From Leuctra nigra (Eukaryota; Arthropoda; Insecta; Plecoptera; Leuctridae), in the NCBI GenBank assembly GCA_934045905.1, contig OW203762.1, positions 13,734,345 through 13,798,344 on the forward strand: a stretch of 64,000 bases of DNA, read 5' to 3'. Of the stretch, positions 14,842-51,799 are shown one piece after another (the stretch's first letter is position 1; each line of letters starts with the position of its first letter). The position numbers were made by a program, and so were the translations under genes. The notes beneath the pieces are model-generated. The model had not been told where the DNA came from. It was given only the letters and a program-made list of their open reading frames with translations, and did not search any database.

Positions 14842-15441
14842 CTACAAAAGCTTGCATATATCAGTCTTGCGCTTCTTCTTCTTCAGTTGCACTTGAAGGG
14901 TAGCTGTGATCGCGGAGTTGAACACTTCCTGTACGCCGTCCTTCGTTAGAGCCGAGCACTCGATGTACGCGAAAGCGTTCATACTCTCGGCCACCAGCTT
15001 GCCATCCTCGTACGACACCATTCGCTTCTTGTTGTCGCGCAGACTCTTGATCGTCTTGGGATCGTTGCGGAGGTCCTTCTTGTTCCCGACTAAGACGACG
15101 GGAACCTTCGGACAGAAGTGTTTGACCTCGGGGATCCACCGTTCCGATATGTTGGTCAGAGAGTCGGGATCCGATACCGAGAAGCACATGAGGATGATGT
15201 CGGTGCTCGGATACGACAGCGGCCGCAGTCGGTCGTAGTCCTCCTGTCCGGCCGTGTCCCACAGCGACAGCTCCACGATCTTCCCCTCGAACTTCACCTC
15301 GCAGATGTAGTTGTCGAACACTGTGGGGATGTAGGCGGACGGGAACTTGTTCTGGCTGTAGACTATCAGGAGGCAAGTCTTCCCGCACTCGCCATCGCCG
15401 ACGATCACCAGCTTCTTCCGGATCCTCTGCGCGCTCGCCAT
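14842..15441 (-). CDS. Rho1/RhoA-like small GTPase (intronless)
   Basis: A complete 199-residue Rho GTPase, closer to canonical Rho1 than its neighbour. Motifs: P-loop GDGECGKT (15-22), switch [28 protein letters not shown] (catalytic Gln66), NKKD (120-123), Rho insert, and SAL in place of the G5 SAK (163-165). A lysine-rich tail ends in CAAX box CKLL, predicting geranylgeranylation and plasma-membrane targeting. It shares the P-loop Ala-to-Glu change with the downstream paralogue. Codons are strongly GC-rich at third positions, unlike that paralogue. The coding part has no intron; a GCAG-GTGAC sequence just upstream (about 15485) could be a 5'UTR splice acceptor. The G5 change may weaken guanine contact, so nucleotide cycling may differ from Rho1; this is inference. 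Confidence 0.92.
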
Positions 15442-16273
15442 CTTCTCGTTGCCACGGAATCAGACGAATGGACCCTGCACGTCACCTGCGACGAACAAGT
15501 CAACAACAGAGTTATAACATCCTTTAGACTCATGCACACTTGTTTAGACACCTGATATTTTCAAAACATGTAAATGATGTATAAAATTAAACATACTCCA
15601 ACAATATAATCGCATGTAGTTGAAATAATAATCCCACTTGTGAAGAATTCAACAACTTTTGATTGACGCTGATGCAATGGTGCGCAATAATTCCTAGTTT
15701 TTCTGTTCGACGATGCAACTGTAGTTAATGAAAAAGAGATGGCACACTTCTGCACAGACAGCAGCATTAACTAATACCAATAACCTGGCACCACGGTTAT
15801 CTCAATGATAATTCTTATCTCAGAGAGAGATAGCAAGACTACCAACTCCCTCTCCCTTTCCATTGGTGCTTATCCTGTCATCTTCAATTTAGGACATGGC
15901 AGATGAGATGAGCAAACATGCTCTGTAGGTATACAAAACATTAAATAGATAATAAATATGTACTCAGTGATATGTTTCACTTAAACCCTTATTTCTATAG
16001 GTACTTTTCCTATTGCAAATCATTTTATGTTAAAAATACCAAAGAAAGATACCTAATATCAAAGTAATTTATAGTCAACTTCTGATACAGTCAATATTGA
16101 TTTTATGTTTAGACAATATGACAATTATTTATGATTAAAGATTGATGAACTGGATAAAGATTTATTAAATCGCTTCCTCAAATTTCAAGTTATCAACAAT
16201 TACTATCTTTACTATATAATTAATCATTCATAAATAGTTTAGATCAGTGATTAATTTGCAAAATAATAAGTGG
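15442..16273. other. upstream region of the Rho gene, no other gene seen
   Basis: AT-rich DNA, presumably holding the promoter and 5'UTR of the gene ending at 15441. No clear core promoter motif or coding exon is seen. Confidence 0.4.
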
Positions 16274-29200: not shown

Positions 29201-32200
29201 AAATTACGTTCCATTCTACATGGTTACAATAGTTTTGCGTGAACAACCCCATTAGAAATTATTTTGAAATGTTGTTTTAATTACAATTTTTTACAATCTT
29301 GTCAATGGCTTTTCCTGCAATATATTCAAATCATCGAGTGTTCCCTATTGTAGATATGTAGGGGAAGTGTGCTATGAATGGGCTTATTAAAATTAAGAGG
29401 TAGGATAGCTATCTAATTTGCCAAAATTAAGGTTGTGACCGTCTCATACAAGATAGAATATGAGTAGGTAGAATAAATAGCAAAAAATTTGAACTCGACC
29501 GCTCTAAAGATAAGTTAAAAATAGGGCAACTAATAAGGTAAAATAATATATTTTGGTCTATGCTAACTTTTCCAAATTTTACCACTGTCAATCCACTGGC
29601 ACTTAAAAAAAATATTCTACAATAATATTCTACATATTCTACATATTCTACGTGTTACTCTACGTGTATGTAGAAAATTAATATTCTACGCGTAATGACC
29701 CAACCCTGAGTTTTATACAAGGAGGTAGTTTGTACTGTGTGATAGAAGACATTGCAATTAGTACATGAAAGACAATTTTATGAGACATACACTGGATTCG
29801 AACTCCGGTCGTCGATTTGGCGCGCTCCCGATGTATCCACTCCTCCACGGTGACGATGGAGGTAGGAGGGTGAAATAAGACATTTGACCGGCGAGCGAGC
29901 GCGAGCGATCGTACGACACAATTCTGATACAAAACGGGTACCTACTGCTGGAGCACTCCAATACCGCGCAATTCAATTTGTTTAAAAGAATGCATTAAGT
30001 ATCATAGTATTATCAATTTACTCATCAATTTTAACATCAAATAATTTTTTTATGTTATTAATTTGTACAGTGCAAAGAAATTAATATAATAAACATAACA
30101 AATAAAATGTGTTCATAATTAAAACATCCCGTTAAAATATTGATACATGAAATTATTGCATACGTAATGAAAGTCCAATTCATACATATATAATTAATTT
30201 TATATTTAAGTAACATTGAAATACTTGATTTCTTGTGGATGACCGTATACAATATTTGTACCACGCCGGCACCATTGCGTGCACTAGTCGTGCACTTTAT
30301 ATTTAAAATGCTCATTTTGAAGACTTATTGCGAGTATTAACTGAAAAAAACACACGGACATGTATTAGGATGTGAAATAATACAACTGATATAGATTAGA
30401 ATTGATTTCGCATAGATATATTCATGTTTTCCTTATGTATATTTTCGCTTTACATTATCTAAACACATCCATAGCGTTGGGTAGGCAAGAAAGTGGAATG
30501 AATAACAGCGTTGTACAACACTGGGCCAGCAATGGTTTTGCATGTTTCCGATAGAGTTGTTTCGCAACGCAAGAAACATGCACTCCTGTTGATACCAGCC
30601 CAGCATTGTTGAGTGCACTCCTTGTGTGTATACAATAAACATGCACGTCGGTCAACACCGGCCCGGTATTGTTGCGCTTGCAGTATTTCTGTATACAAGA
30701 AACATACACGTCGGTCAACACTTGCCCGGTGTCGTTGCGCGTGTAGTTTTTCGTTATACAAGAAACATGCACGTCGGTCAACACTGGCCCGGTATTGTTG
30801 CGCGTGCAGCTTCTGGTATGAAAGAAACATACACGTCGGTAGACACTGGCCCGGCATTGTTGCGCGTGCAGCTTCTGGTATGCAAGAAACATACACGTCG
30901 GTAGACACTGGCCCGGTATTGTTGCGCGTGCAGCTTCTGGTATGAAAGAAACATACACGTCGGTAGACACTGGCCCGGTATTGTTGCGCGTGCAGCTTCT
31001 GGTATGCAAGAAACATACACGTCGGTAGACACTGGCCCGGTATTGTTGCGCGTGCAGCTTTTGGTATGCAAGAAACATACACGTCGGTAGACACTGGCCC
31101 GGTATTGTCGCGCGTGCAAATAAATTGCAGTGTTGTACGCGGGTACAGGCCCAGCATACAAAAGGTACACTCTCTGAAGGTGCAATTTATGTGTGTAGAC
31201 GAACAGATATCTTTCTTGTATCAACCGTACAACGCCCAACACTTTCCTTGCACTTGATGCGTCGGGAAGGCACAATTAATGTACAAAGCGTGCAGTGCTG
31301 TATTTGCTGGGTATAAGGTGCTTCAAATTAAGATAAAACCCAAAACTGAAACTGGTTTGATCAAATATGTCCTCAAAAATATTAAAAAATTTAATCTACC
31401 ATTCAACAACAATAATTAAATAAAGCACAAAAACACAACTGAACACAAAACAGGGAGGTGATCAGTGAGAATTAAACCCAAGCTTTCAAATATAATCAAA
31501 TAAATATGTTGATCGATATCGACAAAGAGTTGAAATTTCAGAAATAATTAACTTGGCTGCTATGCTATTCATTAATAGCAATTCGGTGACCAAAAATCTA
31601 CTCAGCTTTAAAAGATTCAACTAACAATAAAGTATAATTGGACAGTGTCAACAGTGTTGGACAAAATGTAGCAACCTTTTCTCTTTCACATACACAAATG
31701 TTTAACTGCGCATTTTCCGAGGTTGGTACAAAATAGTCTTGTGACTCGTGAGACATGAAACAAACCTCCGTCTCCAGCTTGATCGTCCCCGGCACGGTCT
31801 TCTGCGGCTCGTCGTGCTTGACCTCCAAGTCCTCGATGTCGGCGATGTCGATGTCCATGCTGTCCGACGACTGGTCTAGCTCGTCAGCGAACAGAACGCC
31901 CGACAGCGTGGCACTCGGCTCTACGTAGGCTCGCGAGAACATGTCCGACTCACTGGGCTGGGGAACACAAACATTCACTCACTTCCAGCTCCAAGCAGTT
32001 AGAAAATACATTCAATCGGTGCAGTCTTGAATAGAATCAATTTTATTCATTAATAAATCAAATCATACATTATTCATAATCATAATTAATAATTATAAAT
32101 AATTTCATGAATACTTACCGACAAAAAAGAAAATACCGCATGCTATGAATGGCTTCAAAATATACCTCAAGTCGCCCGCACCCAATCTGTGGATTGGGAT

Positions 32201-34040
32201 TTTCTTGAAAAAACGGTATTTTACGAACCCCTTAGCGAGCTCAGCCCAAGAGAATGCTCGGCATGGCAATGGGGCATGGTGCGCACACAGGTAAAATAGG
32301 GGATTACTAAGCAAAATAATCCTTTTCCAATCCACAGATCGGGTGCGGGCAACTTTAGGTCTCGGTAGTTACGCAGCCTTTGCTTTTCACTATATATTGA
32401 ATAGTTACTTGTTGGGTTCTCTCTAAACTTGATTTAAATTCATCCCCCGTATGAGAAATGTCTTGAAATTAATGCTGCATACATCTTGCATAAATTACTA
32501 GGTCTGTATACACTCAACAAAAGAAAACATTTAAAAATGGTACCTATCCGAAGGTACCATTTCCTTCGAATGCCACTTTTTATTTTATTTAACTTGTATC
32601 ACCTAGGAGGAACTGAAGATTATGTAGATCAAAGATTAAGAAGATTAAGATTTCTATTCAAGATTTAGATGTAAGAAAGTACATAATGTTTGAAAAAAAA
32701 ATGATGATGAGAAGGAAGATGAGTACCGTAGGTAAGTAAGATGATTTGTTACTTATTGTCAGCCATCTCACCAGGTCCGAGTGGTGACCGGAGTTATTGT
32801 CGAATGTATCCAGATCCTGAGATTCTCGGCTCTCATCGTCCATCGAAGAATCATCGCTCGCTGATTCAGATCTAATCGACTCGGTCGGTTTTGTTTGGGA
32901 AGATCTGTAGTCCAGTTTGTACCGGAAAACAGGTCTTTCTTTTTTATGATTAAAATCTGCAACACATTCGAGGTCAATAATAAATACCATCTCTTACTTA
33001 CTTGCATGTTGCTCACTTGAATGGAAAATCCATTGTACTTACAATCCTCTAGAATAATTACTGGGGGAACATCTTCCTGAGCCAGTTTCCACCAACCAGC
33101 CTCAATGCCAAACTTCGATCCAGCAAGGAAGAATTTGGGGCTGAAATGTGACAGCGTGCCTGAAATTGTTCCCATCCAGTTCTTCGTTGGTTTACTGAAA
33201 AGAAGACATGTGTTGTTGTAACAGTGAAAGATAGAAAATAAGTTGAAAATAATCAATCAGGACAAAATTATATTGTTCTGTATTTACCTTGGCAGTCCAT
33301 CGTCCCCTTGGATTAAATTGTCATAATTCATATCAATAAATTTAGCAATATGATATCGATAGTGGTAAAATCCCTTTTTGTTGCTTACTGTTGACACAGA
33401 GTATCTCTTTGAGAGACCATACAGAGCTATTGTAAGCAGTACTACCCTGAAATGAAACGTACACATTAAATGAAATTTGTTTAAATCGCCGTTCACGTAA
33501 GAGCAGTTTGCGAATTGCGAATTGTGGATTGTGCCCAACTATTTAAAAGTACAGAAACTGCTTGCGGCAGACCTATGATTGGTTTAATAAAAAATCCGCG
33601 ATCTGCACTATGCAACCACTCTTATGTGACCGGCTCCTGAGTTTATAAAGGGGTAGGTAGTACGAGATTAAAATTATCCAGCCGAATTGGGGCTGAACAA
33701 GCGAAGGTAGACACCATCACCTCACAATAAGTTGGCGACTTCATACCTTTGAGAATTAATGTACTTACCAATGTAACTTTGGCCTCGTAATTCGTTCGTT
33801 CTCAAAGCCACTACAATCTTCGCAAAGCAACTTAAAAAATACATCTCCAGGCAAATTTCCAGGAACTCCTCCGCTTCGAAGACATCGTAAATGAATGTCA
33901 TTTGAACATTGCTCACAAGTCAAGTATGGGTCCTCTCTTTGACAGCACGTTTGTCTGCAATATTTACACAACACAGCTAAACTATTAATATTGTCAAACA
34001 TGTTTTCTAGCGAAGAATTCTGTACGTCAAGATCAGCCAT
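23300..34040 (-). CDS. KAT14: KAT14 / CSRP2BP (ATAC2), ATAC complex acetyltransferase subunit
   Basis: Eleven exons on the minus strand: 34040-33769, 33446-33288, 33194-33043, 32956-32772, 31957-31766, 28195-28005, 27083-26852, 26305-26199, 25284-25076, 24470-24289, 23473-23300. All phases join, giving 684 residues (vertebrate KAT14 is about 780). The N-terminus has a Cys4-His-Cys3 PHD-like finger (C25, C28, C42, C45, H50, C53, C73, C76), then a winged-helix-like region (AGWWKL), an acidic middle (SDSMDIDIADIEDLE), RRLYRKLSVRRLQRSHGRPV, and a C-terminal GNAT domain (about 550-684) with YCYVRPQHI, GIDLSETLAYPDF, acetyl-CoA loop RRAGIA and LLYQKYGFK. Such phrases are diagnostic of KAT14. The protein belongs to the ATAC histone acetyltransferase complex in the nucleus. 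It shares a promoter with CFAP57. Intron 5 (3.6 kb) is swollen by transposons. Confidence 0.93.
25414..25607. mobile_element. 194-bp palindromic MITE in KAT14 intron 8
   Basis: Ends AAGGTGGATTCACACGGCCG and its complement, with further pairing inward (ACTCCCGTGTGAACTATGAA). The right flank is TTAA-like (CCTTAA) and the left TAAA, so a TTAA-type target is possible but not clean. Confidence 0.8.
27268..27410. mobile_element. 143-bp MITE in KAT14 intron 6
   Basis: Terminal inverted repeats GGGGTGGAATAACATAAGTG and TTATCACTTATGTAATTCCACCCC-type complement (first 24 bp, one mismatch). The centre is ordinary AT-rich DNA. Confidence 0.65.
28779..29708. mobile_element. hAT-like MITE, 930 bp, perfect 8-bp TSD, TATTCTAC array
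   Basis: Termini CAGGGTTGGGTCA and TGACCCAACCCTG, flanked by identical agttttat (28771-28778 and 29709-29716). Near both ends are arrays of TATTCTACGCGTAGAATA variants. Nested inside the TIR element 28334-31311, so it is the younger of the two. No transposase frame. Confidence 0.92.
29790..29855 (-). repeat. tRNA-like patch, possible SINE fragment
   Basis: On the minus strand GGAGTTCGAATCC resembles a pol III B box, and GGAGTGGATACATCGGGAGC about 30-45 bp before it resembles an A box. No complete cloverleaf can be drawn, so a SINE remnant is more likely than a tRNA gene. Confidence 0.3.
30566..31130. repeat. 62-bp minisatellite, about 9 copies
   Basis: Copies start at 30566 (degenerate), 30639, 30702, 30765, 30827, 30889, 30951, 31013 and 31075 (partial). 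The period is 62-63 bp; shared core ACACGTCGGTAGACACTGGC then CCGGTATTGTTGCGCGTGCA. Homogeneity rises toward the right end. It opens all three minus frames over 600 bp, which explains long repetitive open frames there (TDVYVSCIPEAARATIPGQC type); these are not genes. Confidence 0.9.
32171..32352. repeat. 182-bp inverted repeat in KAT14 intron 4
   Basis: GTCGCCCGCACCCAATCTGT (from 32171) pairs with the complementary GGGTGCGGGCAAC end (32325-32352); stem about 28 bp with one or two mismatches. MITE-like. Confidence 0.55.
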
Positions 34041-34419
34041 AACCCTACTACTGCTGTCAACAAAGTACAAACATGCACAGATGCACAGCCTTCTATAGTA
34101 CACGCAAAAAATACAAAGGCGGTGGAAAAGGCGGCAAATTTTTAAATTCTTCATAAATCATAATCGAATGAATAATAATGTGTAATTCGTCCAAGGAATA
34201 ATCAAGTAGAAATGCAGTACGATGGTAGAAAATTGATTTATGTAAATAATTATAAATTAACCCAGTAAATGCCATGGTGAGTTCTCCTCTCTCATAGTAA
34301 TCTTGAAACATAATATCCAAGTAATAGTTAACAACACCATGGTTACCATTAACAACAGGTTGCTAGGGAAGCCTCTCCTAGCAAGTAGTTTTAAGTTTTC
34401 ACAGTTCTTTTGAGAAATA
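34041..34419. promoter_or_regulatory. bidirectional promoter of KAT14 and CFAP57
   Basis: Only 379 bp separate the two start codons, which point away from each other. The stretch must hold both transcription starts and 5'UTRs. No TATA box is obvious. It contains X-box-like RFX sites nearer CFAP57. Confidence 0.75.
34342..34372 (+). promoter_or_regulatory. RFX X-box-like sites upstream of CFAP57
   Basis: GTTACC-ATT-AACAAC (34342-34356) fits the X-box GTNRCC-N(0-3)-RGYAAC with one mismatch. GTTGCTAGGGAAGC (34359-34372) is a second, weaker match. They lie 50-80 bp before the CFAP57 ATG, the usual position in ciliary genes. RFX control of ciliary genes is established in animals; binding here is inferred. 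Confidence 0.5.
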
Positions 34420-37400
34420 ATGTCTATACCAATTATTGAACCTTACGCATTTTATGGCTTAAAAACTGGGATTAAAGGCAATGCTACTTACATCACCGAC
34501 AGCAAAATACTCTACCCTGTCGGTGGTGTGTTGGCATTACATGATTATTCTCAACAGAAACAGCAGTACATTCCACTCCCAGACAAGCGCAATGTTTTTA
34601 ACATCATATGTGTCAGCCCTGACAAGTAAGTCGAAGAATATTAACTCTAGACAGCACAATAACTTTAAAAAAATTATATTTATTTAATGTATTTTAGAAA
34701 GTTTGCCGCAGTAAGTGAAACAGGAGAAAAACCATGCATCTCCCTCTACGATATTTCTACGCTGGAACGGATAAAAGGATTGATAATACCTTTCGATACA
34801 ATAACAGCCACAGAGTTTACCTCATTGGGTTTCACATACGACGGCAAATACATCATCGCAATAGCCGGGGATCCCGATTGGATGCTACCCTACAAACACT
34901 GGGCGGCCCGGGCTTCTGCCCATCTAGCGCCCAAGTGGGACGTCCCGGGCGGGAACTACTAGGGCATGCCCTGGGCCTGCCCAACGGAGCCCAACCGATC
35001 CGTTTTATCTGGCTGTAAAATTTCTAGGAACGTCCCGTCTTGGTCCCGCCCGGGAATGGCTAGGGACGGCCCGCGCGGGCGCTACGACTGTTTGAATTTG
35101 AGCTGCTCTAATGACTTATTTTTTTCATATTTATAACTTCATTTCTATAATAATTACATCTACATTTCACATGGATATATTGATTTAAGAATAAATATGT
35201 TTACAATTCCAAAGCAAAGTATTCATACCATTTTAAACGTTATTAGTAAAGTTTCTTTTATGAACTCGGCAGTCGGCCATCTTCGTGAATCAACTTGTTT
35301 CCATTCTCCCTTCTTCATTTCAAACGCGGCGTTTGACGTTTGTTGATATTTTACAGAGTGTCATGAGTGTGTAGTTTACGTCCTTTTGAGTGATTTTGAA
35401 TGTGATTTCAATTATTATCTGTGTCCGTGAATGCAGTGTTCACTGCTGAATAGTTTGTCTCAGTTCAAACCATTTAATGTGACACAAATCGTGAAATAAT
35501 TACAGTTTTGTTGTGCCTCTTTTGCTTGGATTTTCATCACAGAGCCATACAACCCATTAAAGGTGAGTCTTCATCACAACTACCTACATAAGTATCCAGG
35601 CATTAATCGTTGATACTTTAGTTTTGTATGCTGGGGATACTAATAAACCAATAGGTAGTGTGACCAATGTTCAGTAAACATTAACCTCACATGTAAATTT
35701 TTGAAATGTAGCAATTTATGCAAAGTAAAATTTCCAACTAGGTAGTTTAGGTATTTATAAAATAAATAAAGTAGGTAAACAGTTTGCTTGGCGTGGTAGT
35801 CTATACATATCAGTGGTAGTAGTCAGTAGGAAACCCTACCTGTAGGTACCTAGTACGTACCTCCGCCTATTTTGGGAATATTTTCACCTCTACATTAACC
35901 AATAACCATCCCACATACCTACCAAGGTACCTACTGCAGTTTTAATAATGTTACTTGTTAAAGGTGAATCTACTCTGGAAGAAAATAGGCTATTAAGATA
36001 TTGAACTCCAGAAACAAAGCGCGTATTCGTCCTGCGAGCGAACCAAGCTGTATCGTCAAACCGAGCCGAAACATTAAGAACCGAACCGAGCAGAGTGGTA
36101 AATATTTTCATTATTTTTAATTATTTAACTTTATCAAGGATTTTAGATATACATCAATTATTTTTGTTTATGTAGGTACCTTACAAGGCCAATAACAAAC
36201 ATTTTTGCTGTGATCCGAAAGTAAAAATTATGTTGCATGGAAATTACATTCTTGTCGGAGGTAGTAGATACATACATTGAATGGTGGTCCCGCTTCATTC
36301 AAATACGTAGTAAAATTTTTGAGATTGAATGTTGTCATCCAAAAAAATAAACCGCACCTTTTGAATTTCCTCCAACGCGCCGGTGGTAAGAGAGCAGCCA
36401 TTCCATGCGAATGCAGACATATTATGCCACATAATACATGATGACTGCTGAATTATTAAATGTAAATAAATCAGCATGTTTTTATATTAAATTCATGGTA
36501 TTTTCTTGCTGATTCCAAATATGTAATCAGTTTTTTTTTAAGTTTGAATAGTTATTTTGTTATCAGTAAAATTGTGGGACCGCATTTAAATTTAAATTTC
36601 GTGTCGAACCATGTAAATTACATAAAAAATTTAGAAGGCTGCACAATGATCCTAGAACTATTTTTATTTTGATGAATAAGATGCTGAACATAGCATCTTA
36701 CACCCGTACACCCGTAACACGGAATGGCTGAGAGGAAATTAATTTGAGTTGCTAACTTTCACCTTACTTTTTGTAGGTTCTACAGATTCACCGTGAACTT
36801 GCCCTGCTCTTATTCTAGAGTCGATTTAATTGCCTACCTACTTCAATTAAAAAGTAAATTTACTTCTTGGCAAATTAGCGAGAATTCTGAAGATGCACAG
36901 GACTTGGGACTTCATCGAGTTAATGGATTAAATGTTACCTACCCTACAGATGTAATGATTCAGAACTCTCTGATGGTAAGCCACATTTTAGTATTTTATA
37001 TGTGTAGTATTTCCTCTAACCTTACCTATAAATCACATTTATGCAATATAGAATGTTTCAAATTTTTATTGGGGTTTTAAATAAATAGTGTACCTAATGG
37101 TAATAATTGTACCTCAAGTGATTATTGTGGCAGGTCACACAACACAAAAGTGATTTTTGTATTATTCATTGCCAAGAAGTTTATCCTATCAATTTACAAA
37201 TTCTTCATTGAATCTATCTTTCTTTTTTTTAGGGATCACTCTGTGCCAAAAATTCAATTTTTAAAATTTTTGTAAAGACTGTTATTTGCAGCTATCTGCT
37301 ATTGCAGTTATTTACATAAATAGTTCTTGTGTAGTAGGTAGAAACTATTTGCTAGGCAGCCTCATGCTCAAAAGAAGTTGCATCCACGTAGATTGCGGAT

Positions 37401-40400
37401 GTCAGTCCTCGACACCGTAAGACCGTGTGCTAATAATTTATGGATGGAATCCAGTATCTGGCCATTAAATCGGAAAATTCTTTTGAGCATAGCATAATAA
37501 TAGTGTTAAATATTGACAAAATTAACAAGATCTTACTGATAACAAGATCTTGTAAATGTTGGACTTTCATTGGTCTGACCGAATAAAAATTTACACAAAA
37601 AATAAAAAACACTTCTAACAATACGCTGCATGATCTTGCTAAACTTTTCAAGATCTTGTATAAATCTTGTTTAGGTTAGAATCTGTACCTACAATAATAA
37701 ATAATTGCAAATATCTTGCGAACATTATTAGTACAAGGTACATTACCTAAATACTCTGCAATTTTATTTTTTCAGATGAAAGAAATACGTATTCAATAGC
37801 ATTCATTTTCTTGAAAAACTGAAGATGAAAAATTGTGCCAACATATCCGTGAGTGAAGTAAAATCCGAATTGTGTCTTGTCGATAAAGAGACAGCGTGCC
37901 AGACTCACTGCCAGGTAGTACCTACCTCAGAATGTTTTGATACTATGTGACGTGTGAAGGTTGAAGGACATTTAAAAATTTTAAGTGATGTGGTAGTATA
38001 ATCTTTTACAATAATATACGTTTATATTATATGAAACTGTTTTTTTTTTAATTTTCGTGTGTTTTCCTGCTCTTTATTATTCCTAAAATTCAATTGCAGT
38101 GAATCTCCTATGTGTAGCATTTTATTTTTTGTAATTTATCAAAACAATATAGTACCTAAGTAAGTAGGGAAGAGTACATGAAAAATTTATTATTGAAACG
38201 ATTCAATCGTCCTGTGGGAGATTATCAAAAAATAATTGCTAATTTCAAAATCCAACAACTGATTCATAAACAAAAATTATGGATCTTTTTATCCTTCTTC
38301 ATTTTTTTATGAATAAGGTAGGTAATACTTAAGTCTCTAGAAATTTTGTTCCAGTAAGTTTTTAAATATCAACGCAAATAATTACTGACATTTGTCACCC
38401 GCGAAATGTTAAAAATTAATTCATGCAAATGAAATTCAATTATAATGGGACTTTTGGCGGGAAAAACGACGTATTACAAGAATCCACTTACACTAATGTG
38501 TTACCATTGTGGATCATCTGTCAATTTTCTGTAAATTTTCCTGTTAAAAGTAATCAAACTTTGTAAATTCATTCCTTGAAAACTATTCATCCCACAGCAA
38601 AAATAAAATCACATCTGTGTTCAGCAACATAATCAACTTTCATAAAATAAGGGTCTATTATTCTGAAATCTGAATTTCACGAGACTTCCCCATTATGTGA
38701 CAGTCAAGTTGAGGATTTCAAATGATCCCAAAATATTTCCTCCAAATAAAAATGCGTTAAAAATAAAAACAGTAGGAGGTACCTTAGGTAATGTGTCAGG
38801 TCAGTGGAACAGCTTTCAAACAATAGGGAAACATGGCGAGATAAAATAACTTCCAATAACCACTGATTAACTTTATAAATTAGGTACCGGCTATTTTTTT
38901 TTTTTATTAATATTTGACCATTTAAGGTGATACTAGCGCTCGGCCGTTTTAGAAAATTTAGAGAGAAATATTGTTTCATAAGCGAGTGTAACTTTTACAG
39001 GATGTTCACATGACCACTCTGATTGCATATTAGTAGCACTTTTTCATTTTTGCATATTGCATCGTTAATTAGGCGCCGGTTATTCAACAAAACCGCGCAA
39101 AACTATGAAATTTGCGATACGATTGGAGACCAAACCCGAAAACCAATTGATCTCAAATTTTAATCATGATTAGATGAAAGACAAACTTAGGGTTATCACT
39201 TGGCACATTTTTGAAATTTAATTTTATACGGCGGCCAGGGAGACAAGAAAACAGCTAATTTTTCACCAAAAAGCCACTAATTATTACTAATCAACGAAAC
39301 AAAAAATTAAAAATGTACCAAGGGATAACCCTAAGTTTGTCTTTAATCTAATCACGATTAAAATTTAAAATAATTTGGTCTACCCGTTTCGTCTCCAATC
39401 GTATCGCAAAAAGTGTCTACAAAAAGCAGCAAAATCGCTAGCGCTTGCAGCACCTTAAATGCATTTCTAATGTGTTTGAGTAGGTACCTACTGTTCTTCT
39501 AGTTGACATAACAAATTACAACTGTTGTGAAATATTCCGTGAACTGTGAACTAATACATTGACCCTGGAAGAAAATACCTGGATTATTTTTTCGTATGGC
39601 AACGCCCACTCTCCGAAATTGTGAAAAAATCCCGTTTCTCGTGTCACTCACGTTTGCAATTAATTATGTCTTAATGAAACGTATTTTTTCCAGGTACATT
39701 CGCATTCAAAATTAGTGCCTATATGCACGTGTCTGGATCAGAGGCACGTTTTGTAGGTACTGCATTTTGAATGAGAGTGTACCTAGCAAGCTAGCACGTG
39801 ACCGTTATGGAATGTGCGTAGGGGGAGGGGGCTACAAAGCGAGCAGCTGCTCCCGCGCGGGCCGCCCGGGCGGGGGCCAGGGCCGGCCTATGCCTCCCGC
39901 GCGGGCCGCCCGGGAGGGTCCAGGGACGGCCCATACCTCCCGCGCGGGCGTCATGGGACGGCCCAGGCCGCCGCCCGGGCTTATTCCCAGTGGCAGGCCC
40001 CGGGAGTCTCACTCCATGCTAATCACCCATAAGACGGGAGGTCCCTGGGCAGGCCCGTACGCCCATCTGGGACGGCCTAGGACGCGTCCAGGGACCTCCC
40101 AGTGTTTGTAGGGTACTTTGTTACAACTTGGAGACGAGTAAGGTGGAGAGCTCGGTGAAAGCCAACAATCCGACGTATCCCGGGCCAATCTCACAGGTAA
40201 CAATGTTTGCACGCTAGTCCTTTGTTATTCTAGTTCCTTCCACTTTACCAAGTTTTATAGCTCAAATGATTTTTTTTTTTATTTTAGATTCCAAAAATCT
40301 ACATTTTGTTGCCACTCTTTCCTCCAACTGCTGCCCTGCCTGCTGCAGAAACTCGAACAATCTACCTATTTTAACAATTTCCTTATACTTTTAGAATACA

Positions 40401-43400
40401 AACATTTGAGAGGAATACATTTTTGTTAAAAAAACAAAATAACAAATTATCTTAAAAGTTTCTGAGTTAGTGATTTTCTGCAGTAAATTCTTCTCATGAC
40501 CTAGTATCAATGTGAAGTATCGCTGACGGGATTTTTGTACAGGTGTGTTGCAACCCGGCAGACAACGCCGTCGTGTGCGTCGTGGGAAATGGCCTGTTCC
40601 GCCTCCTCAACGTGTCGGAGAACGTGTGGCGCCAGTTCGGATGGCAGAAGGCAGAGATGTTCCCCGTCACATGCGCCACGTGGCTCTCCTTCGACCGCAT
40701 CATCGCCGGGACCAAGGACGGCAGGATCTTTCTCGTCGAGTCGGGCGAACTCAAGGCCATCTACAGGATCCCGCTGATGACGGAGATCGATATGAAGATC
40801 AGAGAGGAGTACGGAGTTTGTTAAAACTCGAGCGCTTAATTTTCGTAATTTGTAATTAAAGATCTCCTTATTTAGCCAATGCTATTACTCTGGTGGTTCC
40901 TGGATTGTGATTGGAGGTATTAATAAATAAATAATCAATAGAAATATGGCTTTGACATTGCACAGCTTAGTATAACAGCGGAGCGTATATTGCTCTTTAC
41001 TCATGTAAAGCTGAAGAGTGAAGAAAAATATAATAAAAAGAACAAAATCACTCTTGCAAAAAGAACAAAAAAACTTAATTACTCACTCTCATACAAATGT
41101 GCTGGTTGCATGTAATTTTTGACATTAATTAACTGCATGTTTATAAAAGAAAAAAAATGTTTGACATTTTTAATTTTTTTTCAAACAAAGCCCTTTTTTA
41201 TGCATTTAAAAAATTATTTGTATTTGTATATTTAATAGTAAATGTAGCAGCAATTGTATTTTCAATTAAAACAAAAAATCAAAATTAAATTAAAAATATT
41301 AAGAAGATAAAAATATAAGGAAGATTTCACATTTATTTTGAAAAAAATTAGCATGTTTGAATACCTGGAGAGACCGTCTGATTTCATTGCCTTATAATGT
41401 TGTTGATGGCATCAGATAGTCACAATTTGTTAACTGTGGATTAGTTCCTTCACCACATTCCTAATGTGCATCTGCATCTCAGTGCACCGCCCGTGACCGC
41501 CGACACGAGCCTCCTGAAAGTCGACCCAGACGCTCTGGCGGCTGGCCTCGAAGTCAAAGAGCTCCTGACGTTCAAGCGCGGCTTTGCGTGCGCTTGTGGC
41601 GCCGGCACCGTGCACTTGTTCGAGAAGGTCCCCAAGTCCGACCACAAGTACCGCAAGCGCAACGTGTACAAGATCCGAGGCAGCGAGTTCCTCGACGAAC
41701 CCAGCGACGAGCTCAACGTTGTCAACTGTCTGTCGATGGACGTCGGGGAGAGCAACTTGCTGGCGACTACGCAGCGGTCACAGATCTACTCTGTGCGGCT
41801 CTGGGGGCCGGACATCACACAGGTGATTTAGCTTACAATACTGACTAGGAAAACACTCTGTGGATAGGGAGGGCATATGCAAGTCCTTGTCTTGCTCTTA
41901 CACACTGCTTTATAATATGCGGTTTGAGAGTTGCTGATCAAAAACTTGGGAAGATGTAAAGACAAAGGTTTGAAAGAGATGATTAATATGCTCTGAATAA
42001 TATTTTCTTGATAAAACATATTTTTCGAATGTTTTGAAATAAGCTTCAAATGTAATTATGGGTTCTCCTTCACTGAATTTGAAAAATATGACATTGCAAA
42101 ATTTTTGCTTGTTCGGACTAATTATCAATCAGTTTGGGAGGGTGTGTTCAAAACCTCTCCAGTTAGCCAGACAAGCAGTCTATGCAAAATATCAGCTTGA
42201 TAAGTTAAACAATGAGATGTCCGTATTCTGCCGTGTTAGGGAAGAAAAGCGTTGACCATTTAATCATTCAATCATCGATATGTTGCTTTTCCTAACATAG
42301 CAGTATTAAACTCTCTAGCTCATGAAACAATAAAACCTTCACACAAATGTACAATCTCTGAAATGAGAATCATGTTTCAAGTTAAAGTGATGTTTTACGC
42401 AGCCTCTAACAGACTACTATTCTCCAACATTGACATAAACATGACACGATGACAGACGAGTGAGACCGAGTTCTCGCTGGTGGGAGAAGAGCTGCACCAC
42501 GGGCCTGTCATCGGCCTTGCCATGTGTCCGTGGAAGCCCATCTTCATCACGGCGGGCCAGCTGGACCGCAGCCTCGTCGTGTGGAACTACCAGTCCGAGT
42601 GTCAGGAGATGAGGAAGCAGTACACGGAGGACATCTTCTGTGTCGCTCTACATCCCACCGGTACGTCAACTACACTCAATAACTCCACACACAATCATAT
42701 GTTATTTATTAGAATAGATACTGACTTTCAGAACTAGTGCAACCGTTTCTTGTTTCCACTTAATTTGCTCAAATATTTTTTTATTTATGTCAACAAAAAC
42801 TCCCAAATGTGTGTCTCATTTAAAAATGAGTTCTGCACGAAAGTATGATTATTTTTATTTTTTAATGTAGTAAACATATACTATATTTGTCCCCATGGAC
42901 AATCTGCATAACATTATCATTAATGTGAAAAATAAGAAAAAATTAAAAAATTAAATATAAAGAAACATCAAAAAAATACAATATGCATGTACAGATAATA
43001 TTCTCATAAAATATTTTTGAAATAAGATTGATTTCCCAAGAATCTGAGCTATGATCAGATTTGAGGATCTGAGTAAGTACAACTACCTACAACTGCCACC
43101 AAATGTAAAAAACCAGTTACAAGAAACTTTTACGTTTGGTGGCAGATGTAGGAAATTACATTAATTCTTTTCATATCAATCAAAATATAATTATTACAAA
43201 AATGAATGATCATATTCCATCCCAATTATTAATACAAAAGTCATGAGTTGTTCTAGGTAACCCATTGAATAAATATTGAACAAATGTGCCAAAAAAACTG
43301 GGTAGTAACCATCGCATTTTTCGATTTTTGTTTTGTTTTAAATTGTTCTTGCCCAGCTTTATCCAGGGACTGTTAAGTAATTTATTCAATGTAACTAGTC

Positions 43401-46400
43401 CTTTTATAAACTGATTATGAATGTTGGACACATTTTAGGGATGAAATTGTCATGTGTAAAGTATAATGAAATTGTTGGGGACACAGTCTTCTGGCCCAGC
43501 ATTCAAATACACACACAATAATAATTGATAAACCAACAGAAGGAAAAGCACTAATCTGTTTCCCGCCACTAGGCCTGTACGTGCTGATCGGCTTCTCCGA
43601 ACAACTCCGCCTGATGATCCTGCTAATCAACGACCTCCAAACTCTCCGATCCTTCCACATCCGCGGCTGCCCGCTGTGCAGCTTCAGCACCAACGGACAT
43701 CTCTTTGCCGCCGTCAACAAGTTCAACATCGAGGTCTACTCCACCGTCTCCTACCAGCTCATGTACACGCTCCGAGGACACAACGGACAGGTACAAACCA
43801 AGACACTTCACTAGTGCATACGATTTCAAAGATGTCCATTGACGAAAAAGTTTTCAATATCACTACATATTCGTAATGACGGCCACCTGTGTTTGCAATC
43901 ACCTAGGCTCAAGCATTCATGTTTACCAGATTTCAAGGGGATTCTCATTTGACAAATGAATTAAGTGTTTAAATGTAAATTTATCTATAGAAATGGAGCC
44001 CATTTATGTACATTATATATTCCCCTCTGTCATGGGTATACAAGGGGGATTTATATTTAAAAAAGTGATTGAAATTCACAGAATTCAAAATGGTTGTGAG
44101 ATAGTCGCTTTACATTAAGAGAGTAAAGGTCACAAGGGACTAGGTAATATCAGCGGAGCATAGAGCACTGAAAACAAAACATAACCCGCAGGGCTAACAA
44201 CTTTTGGGTGGGGGGGGGGTACTTCTGGTGGGAAATGTTCCAATTTGGATCTATTTGAACGATGATTATTATTTCTACATTTCGCTAATTTCAAATATGA
44301 TTCTCTAACTTGTAAAAGTTGAGATGCAATTTATTTGCAATTTAATTGTAAACTATAGCCGTATTTACTGGCGTTAGAAATTAATGGTAGGGTGTGCCCT
44401 GTTTATTTTTCAAAAAGAAGTAATTGTTCAGCCTTGCCTTCAAACATGGTCCGGCCTGCCCTAGCGCCCTCAATTGCTTTAACGTCAGTTTGACGTCAGT
44501 AACGAGCTTGTACTCTTAGATTGGGTCGCTGCAGTGGACGCCGAGCGACAGTCGCCTGGTGTCATGCAGTCTCGAGGGCGCCATCTACGAGTGGGAGGTC
44601 ACGACTGGCGAGCGCGTTGGCGAGGTGGTCACCAAGTCGTGCGGCTACAACAACGTCGCTGTCATGGCCGACGGAAAGACATACGGCGTCGGCACAGATG
44701 GCAAGATCAAGGAAATTAATAACTCCGTGGTATGTGACAAGAATGTCCACATCTGTGACTTCTCAAGAGAGTTTAAGACGTTTTTATTATTATTTAATGT
44801 AACAGTTTTAAAGCTCCTCTTGCATACCCCAAAAGATTACAACTACCTACACTAAATGGATTCATTCTGACCATGGATTATCTTTTTTATCAAATTTGCT
44901 GATTAATTTGCTGGTATTATAATACCATTCACCAGGGAAAGACAAAACTTAGATGATACAAAAAATTTTAAACCAAAATGACAGGAATCAAATTAGGAAT
45001 GTCAAATCAGTGTTTGTACACACGCTAAACTAGTACAGTACAACTAATCAATAGATGTAATCAAGGCGAAATGAAAATGTTAATTAATATTTTCCTATCT
45101 TACAGTCTCCAAGAAATATGAACATTATCGAAATTTTACTTGATTGCCAACAGGATTTAGCCAATGCAAATCTGGCTAAAGAGCTACATGCATATATCTT
45201 TTGCAGAAGCATTCGTTTACTTAAAAAAACGTTGCCATGAATTCATACTTTCGATCTACTAAATAAGAAAGATCTAAATATTGCTAAAAACTTAAAAAGT
45301 AGAATTTCCTCAAATGTTTTAAATCAAACCTACACATCAAATATAAAGATAAACAATCATCCTAATGCAGGGCCGGTTTTAGGCAGTTTAGTGCCCTGTG
45401 CCAAGGTAACAATTGGCGCCCCCCCCCCCCCCCCTCTCCTAAACAAACTTCAGAAACGAAATTCGTCGAATCGAGGTTGCCCACGATTACAATGGGGGGT
45501 CTGGGGGGAGGGCCCCCCAGCACAATGCGGGTCCGGGGCGCATAGCCCCGGAAAAATTTTGGGCTTCTAGTTTGCATTTGGCGCCTTTTTAGCATATAAT
45601 TATACTGATTGGATTACAATAGGCAATAATAAAATGTATGCATTTTAATGAGTATAAATCTTTTGATTACTATTTGACGAATTCAACATTGTTAGCTAAA
45701 ATAGTTTGTATGTGCCCATATAATATATTCAAGTTTGAAATTACATTGGTTATTAAAACTAGGGCTTACAAGGAAGTGCTTTTCTAGTATTATATTTACT
45801 AGTGCTTTTCAATCGCGTTAATATGTATACAACAATAATAGCAATACATATTTTATATTATGGCGCCCCCTCGGCGCCCTGTGCGGGGGCACAGGTCGCA
45901 CACCCCTAAATCCGGCCCTGTCCCAATGCAGTAAGTATATGAGATGGAATCATAAATGATTGAACTGGTTGCATGTATGAAAACTTGAAAAGTGATAGAA
46001 TGGAATGTGCAGGTGATCCGAGGGATTGACTTGATCGGCCAACCACTGGACTGCATTGTGATGTCTCGCTCCGATCAAATGATGTTTGTCGCAGCGGCTA
46101 ACGGCAACTTGCTCTCCGTCAACTTCCCCATCATCGAGAAGGCGGTGTTCAAGCAGTATCTCATGCACAACAACACTGTCACCAAGGTCAGAAACAGGAG
46201 CTTGTAGGATGATCTCGAATATAGACAATGAGATTTTACTTGAAAGTGTCGTTTAATTTTCATGAACTAGGAAAATGTTCAGTATATTTTATCACCCAAT
46301 TATCATCCATTTGGGTTACATTTACATGCTGTTGATGATCTAGTTGTTGATCTACGAACTTTGAAGTGATTAAAACTCGATTATTTGCAAGTGATCATAG

Positions 46401-49400
46401 TACAGTGAGCGGTGATCAATTTTAACAACTACTTAAAAATAATCTTAAAATGTCAATAGCTCAAGTTCTTCAGCAATTTTTGAAAAAATTTGGTAGAATA
46501 TTAAAAACTGTTGATGGCCTAACTTTCATCTTGACAGGCCCACTAGGTCATAATATATTTTTCAAAACAACCGGAGGTCTCGTTATAGACCAATTGGAAT
46601 TTTATAAACAATCGTCATCACAGATGCTGATGTCGTACGACGACCGCCTGATCGTGACGACGTCTGTGGACGGCACGGTGTGCATGTGGCGTCTGACCTT
46701 TACCGACGACAAGCACGTGGTGATGGACCCGCACTTCAAGCACTCCACCGAGATCCTCATCAGCAAGCCGAGGCTGCAGGGGATGCAGGAGGAGATCAAG
46801 ACGCACATAGCAAGAATCACGGAGCTACAGACTGAGAACGATTACGAGATGCGACAGGTCAAGGTACGTTCACGATGACAGCCAGGCTCACGAGGAACTG
46901 TAGATTTAAGGTGATGAAAACAGTCCCAAAGAACTTGTTCGTATCATTACATCCTCAACAAAATGAGGAAACACTGTCTTTGAAATCAAAGAAACAGTTG
47001 TCCTAAAATCCTAGTCTTTCGGTTCTTTCAAACATAAAAATTCTTTAAAAACTGTAGTTATGATTTGTTTTCACGAAAGGCAATATTTATTTATTAAGAC
47101 ATTAAAAAATTAAATAAGTTAAATAAACTCCAAATCTTTAAGACAAATGAACTTAAGAAGGTAATAAAACATCTCCATCTCACCATCTCTTACGATTCTA
47201 GATTCGCACAGCATATTGACTCACGATTAAAGGATACTACAACCAATAAAAGGATCTTGATCACCCTCTAAACCGCCATTTTGTGATTGTGATCATCTCG
47301 TTGACGATGAACTCTGTTAAAGCGGCAGAACTGTAGTATATAAAACTACTAGTAGTATACTACTTTATATATGTAGTATATAAAGTCCTACTGGAAGAGG
47401 ACTTAATAGTTCCCAAGGGTCAATGCATTTTTTTAAATGTGAATGGAAATAAATCTGAATCTGAAATCTGTAAAATTCGTCAACACATTGAGGAATACCA
47501 ATGTGACGAATACCTCTTTTTGGACCAATACCAAAAAGAGATGGAGACCCTAAATGGCGATCCTTTCCCGTAATAAAAGTAAATTGCGTTGCCTTGTTCA
47601 GGCTCAGAACGAGCAAGAGATCCGTCGCCTGCACGACGGCTACGGCAGTACCGTGGCGGAGCTGCAGGAAACCAACCAGACGATGCTGTCCGAGCATCGA
47701 CACCAACTCAACCTGCTGCAAGCCTCGGCCGACGAAGCTGCCGAGACAAACGCTCGAGAGCTGCAGCGCGTGGAGGCGGACTTCAGCGCCAAGCTCATGG
47801 TCGAGTACGACAAGTTCAGGATGATCGAGAAGCAGATCACCGACATGAAGCCAGACTTTCACAGGTATTGCACTTTCAACGTAAACAATCAGTAGCGAGG
47901 AGTGTAGCATGAGTAAGTCTGGCTTTCCCTTTCATTATACTTTCAAGAAGCGTAACGTTCTACAAGAATTTCTACAAAACTTTGAATCCACACAAAACTA
48001 CTAGTATGTATAAGTTTTATTTCGTCTAAGAAGAAGTTGGAAATTTCCATAGAACGTTTTGAGGAATTAAGGCAGAATAGTTTCTCAGATATTGTAGATA
48101 ACATATTAGCGATATTAAAAGATTAGACTCATTGTAATTTAAATGCCAATTTGTCTAGACAACTGGAGGAGTTGGAAGCATCGAAACGAGCCGCACTTGA
48201 AGAGATGAGGTTGAGTTACGAGAGCCAACTTCAAGCCAAAGAAACGTTTATACACGAGGTAAACAGAGAACTTTCCACATTTTCAGGCACATTCATCAAC
48301 CATCAGCAATGAGCCAGCTTATAGCCTGATGTTACATTATAAGCCGTTGTCATTCTCCAGTTTTCCCCTGGAACTCTTTTAAGAGATCTCGAGACCAAAT
48401 TTCCGATCAACATCCACAAACTTTGTCATACAGGTCCATCCACAGCCACTTCATACAGTTTTTGAGTTGATATGTTTAAATAATAACAACTGTTAGGCTT
48501 ACATTATGTAGCCAATGATGGTGTTGTGTAACAGCTTCAGGAGGAGAGTCGCATGGAAGCGGAGGAGCACGAAGCGACGAAACAGCAGATCGAAGACGAC
48601 GCGGACCGCGAGATGCTCGACCTGAGCGCGGAGTACGAGAAGAAGCTGCGCAGTCAGCGCAAGCACAGCGTGCAACTGCGAGGGGAGATCGGGGTCATGC
48701 GCAAGAAGGTGGCCAGGTGAGGGCTTTTCACAACTCTACCGTATAGCAGTACAGCCAGCCACATGTTATTGCAATTCTAGCTACACCACAACGAAATTGT
48801 AATATAGGAGAGATTTGAAGTGTCTTTTTAAGTTTTAATTTATTCAACAATTTGAGTTCGTACTTGAAATGATTTATTTATTATTACAATCACTTTGTTC
48901 ATCCATAATGGATCTATGGTTTAGCTAAATTTCAAACGTATTCGGATGTTTAGTCATCTCATAACTCAAATATTTTTTCCAGTGATGTTTATGCCACACT
49001 TTTATCTCAGGATGAAAGAAGATTTTGGGGCTAGGATATGAAATACTGACAACATGAAAATCTAATTCTGAATGTGAAGAAGAGTTTTACGAAATTTCCG
49101 CGACTTTTCAAAAATGCAGTTTCATTTATTTAACTCTGAGACAGAGCGAACTGGGACCCTTCGAGGCCTTCCATCACAAAATATCAAGCCCTCCAGATAT
49201 CTCTCCAAAGCTCATTGTTGTTGCAGTACTCAGCAAGCCATCGAGGAGTACAAGCGACAAGTAATCACAGCTCAGAGTGAGCACCAGAAGGCCAAGCTGA
49301 CCATCGTCTCACTGGAGGGCGACATCGTTGACCTCAAGAGAGAGGTCACTGAGCGAGATGTCACCATCGAAGACAAGGCAAGACATATCAGAAGCAACTT

Positions 49401-51799
49401 TACATTTCACTGAGCATTAGGATAAAACATATACCTAACTAAGGCTGCGTTTCACCAAGATTCTAAACCCGGTTTAGAGGCGGTAAACCTGGTTTAGGGG
49501 CCTCTAAACCAGGTTTACCGCCTCTAACCCAGGTTTAGAATCTTGGTGAAACGCAGCCTAAGTGTAAGTGATATTTTAGAATGTGTTGTGACCACAAAGT
49601 ATTCACCGTACAAGTAAATCCATAAGTTGAATTTCACAACGTTCCCCCTATTGTATGCCCAAATTAGGTATGATTATGAACAATATTGATAGCTTTGAGT
49701 TGCAAAATTGGACAATTATTCATATTCAAAATACTGTTACGTAGGTACTATATAAATTGATAAATAATGCCTGTTTTTCTGTATTGAACAATAACAAATT
49801 TAATAATGACAGTTAAATGTTTTTTTCTACTAATTTGTGAAGAATTGTAAATTTCCAGGAAAAGCGAATCCGGGACATAAAGAAGAAGATCCATGAGCTT
49901 GAGAAATTCAAATTTGTTCTGAGCTACAAAATTACTGAGCTGCAGAACAAAATGCAGCCAAAAGACCAAGAAATTGACGAGAAGAAAAGCCAAATTAGAG
50001 GAGTAAGTCTTTGAGCTTAGAGTGCGTAACTTTGAAATAGAAGTACGGTACTAAATTAAATATCTCTTGACTGAAAAGCGTGATCACAGACTTATATTTT
50101 GTCATTTTCTGTTACAAGACAGTCGATTAATTTCGCCGAGAACTAATAGTTGACACTTGCACCTACAGATGGAGCTAGAGTTGGAGTCAACGCAGAAGAG
50201 CAATGCATCTCTGTCGCTGCAACTGCATCACTGTCGCGAGAAGTTGACGGTCACCGAGATCTCGCTGAGCAAGAAGTGTCAAGCGAGCAACGCATGGCAG
50301 CGCTCCGTGTTGGCAGACCTGGATCGTCTGACTGCACTTATTCAGGATCCTGCCAAGCTCAAAGATATACTCACTGTGAGTTTAATACAAATGTGATCAA
50401 CAAGTTGTACAACAAAATAATTTTGAATTCAAAGATCCAGTTATTTTACCAGTCTTTGCAGAAGTTTGCATGGTGTCATTGTTGACACCATCTTGATGGC
50501 ACCATTCAGAATAGCTGTGATCAGCGATTCCTTTTAGCAATATTAATAGTTTTAACTTTTAATGATTGCCTGGGCAACTGCAGGCTCCAGATAAATCTAT
50601 AATATGAAGAGGGATCACCGACTTTACAAAAATATATCGATTTGCCTCCATTTAGAAATTAAATCTGACCCATCAACAAACCAGTCTGCCCTCGGTGGAT
50701 ATTAATTTTTTTGCGTTGGTGATGTAAAAGAAAAGGAGTTTGTGCATGCTGTGAATATCCTATTCTCTTGCCACAGCATGTTATACCTGATTTGGTTTAT
50801 CAATGAAAAAATGCCCAGTTAAATATTTAAGAAATGCAAGTTAGATAGAAGATATTGATGCTCCACAGTACTACATCCGACCCATCTAACCGCATCTTCA
50901 TTTTAATTCTGTTGACACAGAGGTGCCAACAAAAGTACAGCAAAGACCAACCACCCGTCGTTGACATCGTTGCTGTGACGGACTTTGCCAAACAACGGGA
51001 ACACCTGGAGAAGACCATCGAGTCCCTGCGGAGACAAGTGGATAACCAGACGTCGGCGCACAATAAGGACAGAGAGAAACTTATACAAGAAAACATGGTA
51101 CTTCTGAAGGAGCTCAACGATATCCGAGTCAAGCTCAAGGAGGCAAACAAGAACATCAGCGAGTTCGAGTACTTTGTGGGCATGGCTCTGAAGGCGGAAG
51201 GTATTACAGTGATCGATATTTATATTTGTTGGCAATCTGCAGCTTAGTTTTTATGAAATTACATTCTAAATAAATTACAGCACCGCTGAAACGCTGATCA
51301 TCACTAATACTAAAATTATCAAACTTTTCAGGTAAAATTCAAGTGTTCACTATGTTTTCAGGAATGAATAATAATTATTAAGTAGTAATAATATATTTTT
51401 GAATATCTACTTTTTTGTATCTTGGTTTCAATGCACACAATATTTGGCAATCAAATACGGAGTTTTGAGCAGAGGCGATGTCGATAGATAACGATTTTCA
51501 ACTAAACAAAACAACCTCCTACAAACAAATACAACATATTTTCAATTTAAATCAGCTAAACCTACTCGACTATTGCAGGTAAGCCAAGATCCCGGAAAGA
51601 TATCAAGAAACACCTGTCGATGGCTTTTAAGAGCCGAGAAGAGGTCCACCAACAATACGCTCACCGCATCAGCGAAGCCGAGAGAAAGATAGAAGCGCTC
51701 AAAGACGAGACGCAGAGATTGGTGGAGAAGCTGATCCAGGAGGAGGCGCGGCATGCTGACAAGGGAGGAGTCGAGTTCACAACCCCACACAGTCCCTAG
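34420..51799 (+). CDS. CFAP57: CFAP57 (WDR65), axonemal WD40/coiled-coil protein, exon 2 split by a transposon
   Basis: Seventeen exons: 34420-34625, 34698-34887 continued at 40116-40196, 40543-40808, 41483-41822, 42456-42660, 43573-43790, 44520-44729, 46013-46186, 46624-46863, 47602-47864, 48159-48258, 48535-48716, 49227-49377, 49859-50002, 50169-50375, 50921-51200, 51579-51799. Phases close to 1225 residues (human about 1250). Residues 1-690 are WD40 repeats (FSTNGHLFAAVNKFNIEVY, LVSCSLEGAIYEWEVTTGER, LIVTTSVDGTVCMWRL); 700-1200 are coiled coil (AEYEKKLRSQRKHSVQLRGE, KKKIHELEKFKFVLSYKI, AKQREHLEKTIESLRRQV). CFAP57 helps place inner dynein arms on cilia and sperm flagella. A 5,226-bp element interrupts exon 2, so this allele should be null unless the element is spliced or excised. 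Intron 13 has a GC donor (AAG/GCAAGA at 49378). Confidence 0.93.
36777..36974 (+). other. possible exon within the 5.2-kb element
   Basis: An open segment bounded by TTTGTAG on the left and by a donor ATG/GTAAGC at 36975, reading for example FTSWQISENSEDAQDLGLHR. It could join in frame to a segment after TTTTTCAG at 37775 that stops after a few codons. No family match; a short element-borne transcript is possible. Confidence 0.15.
38936..39454. mobile_element. TTAA-flanked MITE nested in the 5.2-kb element
   Basis: Termini GGTGATACTAGCGCT and AGCGCTTGCAGCACC (11 of 15 pair) with TTAA on both sides (38932-38935 and 39455-39458). Inside, GCGATACGATTGGAGAC pairs exactly with GTCTCCAATCGTATCGC, and further blocks pair around TAGGGTTATC. 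TTAA targets are typical of piggyBac and Kolobok families. Confidence 0.75.
45368..45920. mobile_element. hAT-like MITE in CFAP57 intron 7, 553 bp
   Basis: Termini CAGGGCCGGTTTTAGG and CTAAATCCGGCCCTG with flanking 8-mers tcctaatg and tcccaatg (7 of 8 identical). Contains a C-run at 45420-45433 and a CCCCAG-rich patch. No transposase frame. Confidence 0.85.
49440..49560. mobile_element. 121-bp hairpin MITE in CFAP57 intron 13
   Basis: TAAGGCTGCGTTTCACCAAG pairs with its complement at the right end, and the pairing continues to the centre through GATTCTAAACC and GCGGTAAACCTGGTTTAG blocks, giving arms of about 57 bp with very few mismatches. It begins 62 bp after the GC splice donor. Confidence 0.85.

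Follow-up and report, generated by a model that had tools for sequence, protein, structure and literature searches.

A young, provisionally CACTA-like DNA transposon interrupts a coding exon of CFAP57 in the stonefly Leuctra nigra

A 64,000-nucleotide stretch of chromosome 2 of the stonefly Leuctra nigra (C2:13,734,345-13,798,344 in a genome of 536,196,549 bases; hereafter the window, in whose numbering features are given) carries a CFAP57 gene, and a DNA transposon lies inside the second coding exon of this gene. When the element and one copy of the dinucleotide TA are left out, the gene comprises 17 exons on the plus strand between 34,420 and 51,799, which join in phase and encode 1,225 amino acids followed by a stop codon. 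Exon 1 (34420-34625; 206 nt) begins with the start codon at 34420 and was recognized by homology to CFAP57 in the Protein Data Bank (PDB) and in insects. Exon 2 is present in two pieces, a 5′ part of 190 nt (34698-34887), the last bases of which are one TA of the target-site duplication, and a 3′ part of 81 nt (40116-40196). These are followed by exon 3 (40543-40808), exon 4 (41483-41822), exon 5 (42456-42660), exon 6 (43573-43790), exon 7 (44520-44729), exon 8 (46013-46186), exon 9 (46624-46863), exon 10 (47602-47864), exon 11 (48159-48258), exon 12 (48535-48716), exon 13 (49227-49377), exon 14 (49859-50002), exon 15 (50169-50375), exon 16 (50921-51200) and exon 17 (51579-51799), which includes the stop codon. 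The intron after exon 13 is of the GC-AG type, its donor reading AAG|GCAAGA (window 49372-49382) with GC in place of GT, and the chain of the coiled-coil exons closes only if this donor is allowed; donors restricted to GT give no chain. Apart from the element, not a single stop or frameshift was found over the 1,225 codons.

The assignment to CFAP57 was made by sequence comparison and holds across the full-length protein. The joined exons 1-3 matched the CFAP57 chains of PDB entries (best 8j07_i4, E=1.1e-35), and for the first 710 residues the top database relatives were the CFAP57/WDR65 proteins of Timema and Anabrus (48-54%). Furthermore, Anabrus CFAP57 (P0002; residues 3-1202 of 1,219) aligned with residues 2-1208 of the window gene at 46% identity. 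Loss of CFAP57 is reported to be harmful to flagella and cilia in people, mice and algae, according to the available portions of three papers (PMC7444499, PMC9977434, PMC12751231).

The transposon extends from 34,888 to 40,113 and is exactly 5,226 bp long. Its left terminal inverted repeat, CCCTACAAACACTGGG (34888-34903, plus strand), agrees with the reverse complement of the right one (40098-40113, minus strand) at 16 of 16 positions, and a TA target-site duplication directly flanks the element, with its left copy at 34886-34887 and its right copy at 40114-40115. When up to three mismatches were allowed, CCCTACAAACACTGGG was detected at just two sites in the window, both of them exact and both of them the ends of the element. 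Two matches to the loose 16-mer also appeared in 6 of 100 shuffles, and this control, taken alone, is weak. Removal of the element together with one TA restored the codons ATG CTA | CTT TGT TAC, giving MLLCYNLETSKVESSVKANN in frame. The insertion point is located between codons 132 and 133; when the protein is aligned with 16 relatives of CFAP57, the residues at the CTA|CTT junction lie without a gap in the motif GEPDWML-YYNWEKGK. In addition, the restored exon 2 measures 271 nt, a length that fits its entry in phase 2 and its exit in phase 0. A preliminary description of this stretch had claimed perfect 16-bp inverted repeats flanked by TA, a rejoining of ATG CTA with CTT upon deletion, an exon length suited to the neighbouring phases and an otherwise clean gene, all of which were borne out. 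The natural disruption of a CFAP57 coding exon by a transposon is real.

The two ends of the element differ in composition from its interior. The left ~220 bp (34888-35107) contain 63% GC and the right 280 bp (39834-40113) 73% GC, as compared to 33% in the interior. Both of these regions are made up of subterminal repeats, the right one including a 43-bp tandem repeat at 39850-39967. The motif GGGACG[GT]CC was found three times on the left, three times on the right and never in the interior, and the subterminal motifs tested were confined to the ends. A nested insertion of 529 bp with a fold-back (38926-39454; arms 39111-39224 and 39297-39410) is shared by 8 of 39 copies compared (the window copy, L018, L029-L033 and L040) and serves as a marker of this sublineage. 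No Pfam family was detected in the six frames of the window copy at E-values up to 1, transposase domains included, and none in the six frames of an older version of 6,011 bp (L013); Transposase_21 (PF02992) was absent from both of these copies. Rfam at gathering thresholds yielded no match in the window. As no transposase domain was detected, the element is considered non-autonomous and would have to be moved in trans. One frame with splice-like borders, at 36785-36978, was considered as a hidden coding exon, but it was rejected because the older copies L013 and L038 show 24 gap columns there with a net loss of 22 bases, which is not a multiple of three.

Genome-wide, the exact 16-mer was found 332 times in one orientation and 329 times in the other, 661 times in all, whereas the same pattern read backwards was found 0 and 0 times; the 16-mer is therefore a genuine repeated end. 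By this count of ends the family numbers ~330 copies, or by arithmetic ~0.3% of the genome. Among the matches listed, the ends on chromosome 1 form 40 pairs spaced 4.6-6.0 kb apart and 6 single ends, and this chromosome-1 part appears to be complete, as the matches continue into chromosome 2. The 40 stretches that were fetched represent 39 copies, L035 and L036 being one copy; with the incomplete L034 dropped, 38 fetched copies and the window copy gave a comparison set of 39. L029-L033, L035, L037 and L047 had been chosen from a list of TA-flanked sites, and L029-L032 also for their length of 5,226 bp, so that identity and TA are over-represented among these copies.

Four copies (L018, L029, L030 and L031) were identical to the window copy at all 5,226 of 5,226 bases. 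L033 showed no differences outside its nested insert of 3,323 bp, and L032 differed at 2 positions. L018 had been taken with the first chromosome-1 copies, without choice for length or TA, and its duplication is AA, which marks it as an independent insertion. In the comparison set, once nested inserts were disregarded, 14 of 39 copies had a sibling that agreed with them without mismatch across an alignment of 4.7 kb or more. The copy farthest from its nearest fetched sibling differed from it by 42 mismatches and 27 gap openings over 4,683 positions. The presence of identical copies elsewhere indicates that the insertion into CFAP57 is very recent, in agreement with the preliminary description. 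At an assumed mutation rate of 2.8e-9 per generation and under a star-like assumption, the six identical copies bound the age at ~34,000 generations, and with L032 included the point estimate is ~20,000 generations at the same rate; the bound is valid for the sublineage of the window copy only, and the copies were partly chosen for equal length.

The target-site duplications were tallied at 49 sites, consisting of the copies compared and 10 more copies on chromosome 1 whose junctions were read. A 2-bp duplication was present at 46 of these, the duplicated sequence being TA at 18 sites, TT at 10, AT at 9, AA at 2 and one of seven other dinucleotides at a single site each. Upon exclusion of the 8 sites picked for TA, a duplication was found at 38 of 41, with TA at 10. 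Upstream of the 661 ends, the preceding bases were TA in 180 cases, TT in 96 and AA in 96; equal frequencies of TT and AA are expected from a duplication.

A genome-wide search with Transposase_21 yielded 28 matches, many of them in open frames of 738-853 amino acids, while none of 14 control genomes gave a match. Two of the matches are located in a span of 37.6 kb on chromosome 5 (C5:37566297-37603936) that is bounded by family ends (L078 and L079) and flanked by a TT duplication. The idea that this span is an autonomous element was unsupported, as the family sequence is left inside its left end and is followed there by unrelated sequence that looks like a long terminal repeat (LTR) element by eye; the span is probably a regular family copy into which other elements have nested. 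L033 (8.55 kb) was likewise discarded as an autonomous version, since its extra 3,323 bp belong to a nested element that has inverted ends of its own. This 3.3-kb DNA element of L033, with the ends AGCCATTCCATG, contains a frame of 716 amino acids (L033 4811-6958) that is transposase-like by eye; in Pfam the frame gave no Transposase_21 match and just DUF5650 at E=0.049, below the cut-off. The extra length of L034 and L035 is due to nested non-LTR retrotransposons, as judged by eye from open frames.

We consider it highly likely that a non-autonomous element of the animal CACTA type very recently jumped into exon 2 of CFAP57 and that the resulting allele is a null of one of the two CFAP57 genes in this genome. 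Presumably, a transposase made elsewhere in the genome bound to the 16-bp ends as well as to the subterminal repeats rich in GC, excised the element from a donor copy and inserted it into exon 2 at a staggered cut of 2 bp, which in this case was TA. If the mRNA retained the element, translation would end at the first in-frame stop (34960-34962, plus strand), 24 codons into the element, and the product would consist of 132 CFAP57 residues and 24 element residues, 156 in all. The reading frame thus predicts a null allele, provided that splicing does not remove the element. Several observations weigh against this reading. The empty site GATGCTACTTTG, with up to 2 mismatches, had no match in the primary assembly, which represents one haplotype, and three of the 49 sites tallied (L038, L041 and L063/L064) lack a 2-bp duplication. 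Such a duplication is reported for just 7 of 14 copies of SmTRC1, an animal CACTA-type element, in the accessible text of PMC1636069. None of the four Transposase_21 matches on chromosome 1 is enclosed by a pair of family ends, and the 3 kb upstream of one other match contain neither an end sequence nor similarity to the element. Moreover, the second CFAP57 gene is intact, which weighs against a strong phenotype and may leave a sperm or cilia defect partial or absent, and an in-frame removal of the element by splicing is possible as judged from the predicted joins.

The second CFAP57 gene was found by searching the genome with exons 1-4. It is located on the minus strand of chromosome 1, within 23,405,500-23,419,529 (L076, L069 and L074), and its 7 exons join in phase from start codon to stop to encode 1,251 amino acids. 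Identity between the two genes is 41% for the whole length and 47% for the first 710 residues, and a tree of 22 proteins provided no clear date for the pair. The preliminary description had expected that loss of the window gene would affect sperm or sensory cilia; this expectation is weakened by the full-length gene on chromosome 1, which may soften the effect of the insertion. The presence of this complete gene also raises the idea that the chromosome-2 CFAP57, as a redundant duplicate, had already escaped selection and that the insertion was a harmless hit in a dying gene. We regard this as unlikely. The one intron with a GC donor would be in line with decay, though such introns can be normal, but the 1,225 codons are free of stops and frameshifts besides the element. 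In addition, the end branch in the tree is shorter for the window gene (0.59) than for the chromosome-1 paralog (0.78), and the window gene outscores the paralog against Timema, Anabrus, Cryptotermes, Schistocerca and Bacillus. Against Ischnura, the scores were nearly equal, 313 bits for the window gene and 310 for the paralog, and the identity was higher for the paralog (40.1%) than for the window gene (38.6%). An old pair that is this intact would argue for selection on both genes until recently.

In maize, defective Spm elements in exons are reportedly spliced via acceptors in the element ends. The CFAP57 insertion might likewise be tolerated if the possible acceptor TTTGTAG|GG in the right terminal inverted repeat, which ends at 40111, were used together with the exon-1 donor or with a weak left-end donor; the predicted joins lead to 40112, from exon 1 or from 34934. 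The exon-1 donor (CAA|GTAAGT) is strong by eye, and joining from it would cause an in-frame loss of 62 codons, while joining from the left-end donor would cause an in-frame gain of 17; both joins are free of stops through exon 4. However, 32 of 96 donor-acceptor pairs proved to be in frame and stop-free, and this proportion of one in three is the chance rate. Furthermore, a protein lacking 62 residues of its WD propeller would be unlikely to work. We therefore hold it improbable that splicing rescues the gene, and retain the null allele as the preferred interpretation.

The assembly, ipLeuNigr2.1, was made from one male at 32-fold PacBio HiFi coverage and represents one haplotype, the second being deposited apart as GCA_934046545.1, and the DNA was sheared to 12-20 kb on average, as stated in the available sections of PMC10280035. 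The HiFi reads are filed as ERR8705875, and the Hi-C reads, ERR8702800, derive from another animal, ipLeuNigr1 (PMC10280035). A misjoining of a repeat copy into the exon is conceivable within a repeat, as the window copy is identical to several others, but we give it almost no credence: both junctions have the TA and rejoin one codon exactly, HiFi reads from DNA of this size are long enough to cross 5.2 kb, and identical ends flanked by a duplication of 2 bp were read at 45 other places, so that assembly errors at the junctions, which the preliminary description had named as a possible objection, are unlikely. Equally hard to credit is a Tc1/mariner-type insertion at TA, which the TA on both sides of the window copy would suggest but which is ruled out by the duplications of other copies, 28 of 46 being other than TA and 8 of the 18 TA cases having been picked from the TA list, and which is contradicted by ends that begin with CCC and by GC-rich subterminal repeats. 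The preliminary description had left the element unclassified. Since the 2-bp duplications vary among the other copies, the TA in CFAP57 is an accident of this site, its Tc1-like look is misleading and the element is not of the Tc1 type.

As the insertion is very young, it probably segregates in the population. Somewhat more tentatively, and with slightly less than even confidence, we propose that a family of the CACTA type is transposing in a wild insect at the present day and that its copy in CFAP57 has created a natural knockout, still segregating, of one member of an old pair of paralogs. If this were true, homozygous and heterozygous animals from a Welsh stream could reveal whether the two CFAP57 genes are redundant or divide their roles between sperm and sensory cilia, and a natural allele beside an intact paralog would be a usable test of redundancy. 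For annotators, the gene may appear split or as a pseudogene in the assembly, though its lesion would be a single recent insertion.

Several other features were observed in the window. A cysteine-rich open frame at 33768-34157 on the minus strand, PHD-like by eye, starts ~260 bp upstream of CFAP57 in the opposite orientation; no Pfam match was found for it. A minisatellite with a 62-bp unit, 7.9 copies and 91% matches is located at 30628-31118. Two neighbouring single-exon frames for small GTPases on the minus strand (12951-13538 and 14848-15459; Pfam Ras, Rho-like by eye) are perhaps retrocopies. On the plus strand, a frame of 1,140 amino acids at 58183-61602 contains reverse transcriptase and endonuclease domains of a non-LTR retrotransposon, together with a PHD match below the cut-off. 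Its N-terminal part includes GDIELNPGP, which we take to resemble a 2A ribosome-skipping peptide.

No transposase gene could be tied to the ends of the family. The superfamily was thus assigned from the terminal repeats, the target-site duplication and the subterminal repeats, and the placement in the animal CACTA (TRC/EnSpm) type is provisional. Ends that start with CCC, duplications of 2 bp and subterminal repeats of high GC content are in keeping with this type. The published systems are compared here from the accessible parts of the respective papers. The ISL2EU group of the PHIS superfamily also generates a 2-bp duplication, but it duplicates AT within AATT (PMC4482050), whereas the window family duplicates many different dinucleotides; with 37 of 46 duplications other than AT, ISL2EU was rejected. 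A start with CCC and a 2-bp duplication are shared with animal TRC elements of the CACTA/EnSpm superfamily, namely SmTRC1 and those of Tribolium and Aedes (PMC1636069) and Spongebob (PMC4298943). The Tribolium element begins with CCCTAG and the window element with CCCTAC, and the former has a similar length of about 5.2 kb (PMC1636069). The window element is unlike TRC in that its 16-bp repeats have another sequence, its subterminal blocks are GC-rich and the two copies tested lack a Transposase_21 domain. Subterminal repeats are a feature of plant CACTA elements (PMC2613891), and the word is not used in the accessible text of the TRC paper (PMC1636069). Non-autonomous plant elements of the En/Spm and Tgm kind have repeated subterminal motifs at both ends, as found here, and include defective deletion derivatives without a working transposase, like the window element (PMC2613891); however, plant elements start with CACTA and produce a 3-bp duplication, whereas the window element starts with CCCTA and produces one of 2 bp. 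Elements and events of these kinds are already known. The ends and identical copies reveal a young CACTA-like family of many copies in a stonefly, and its copy in CFAP57 cleanly illustrates how a coding exon is broken by such an element.

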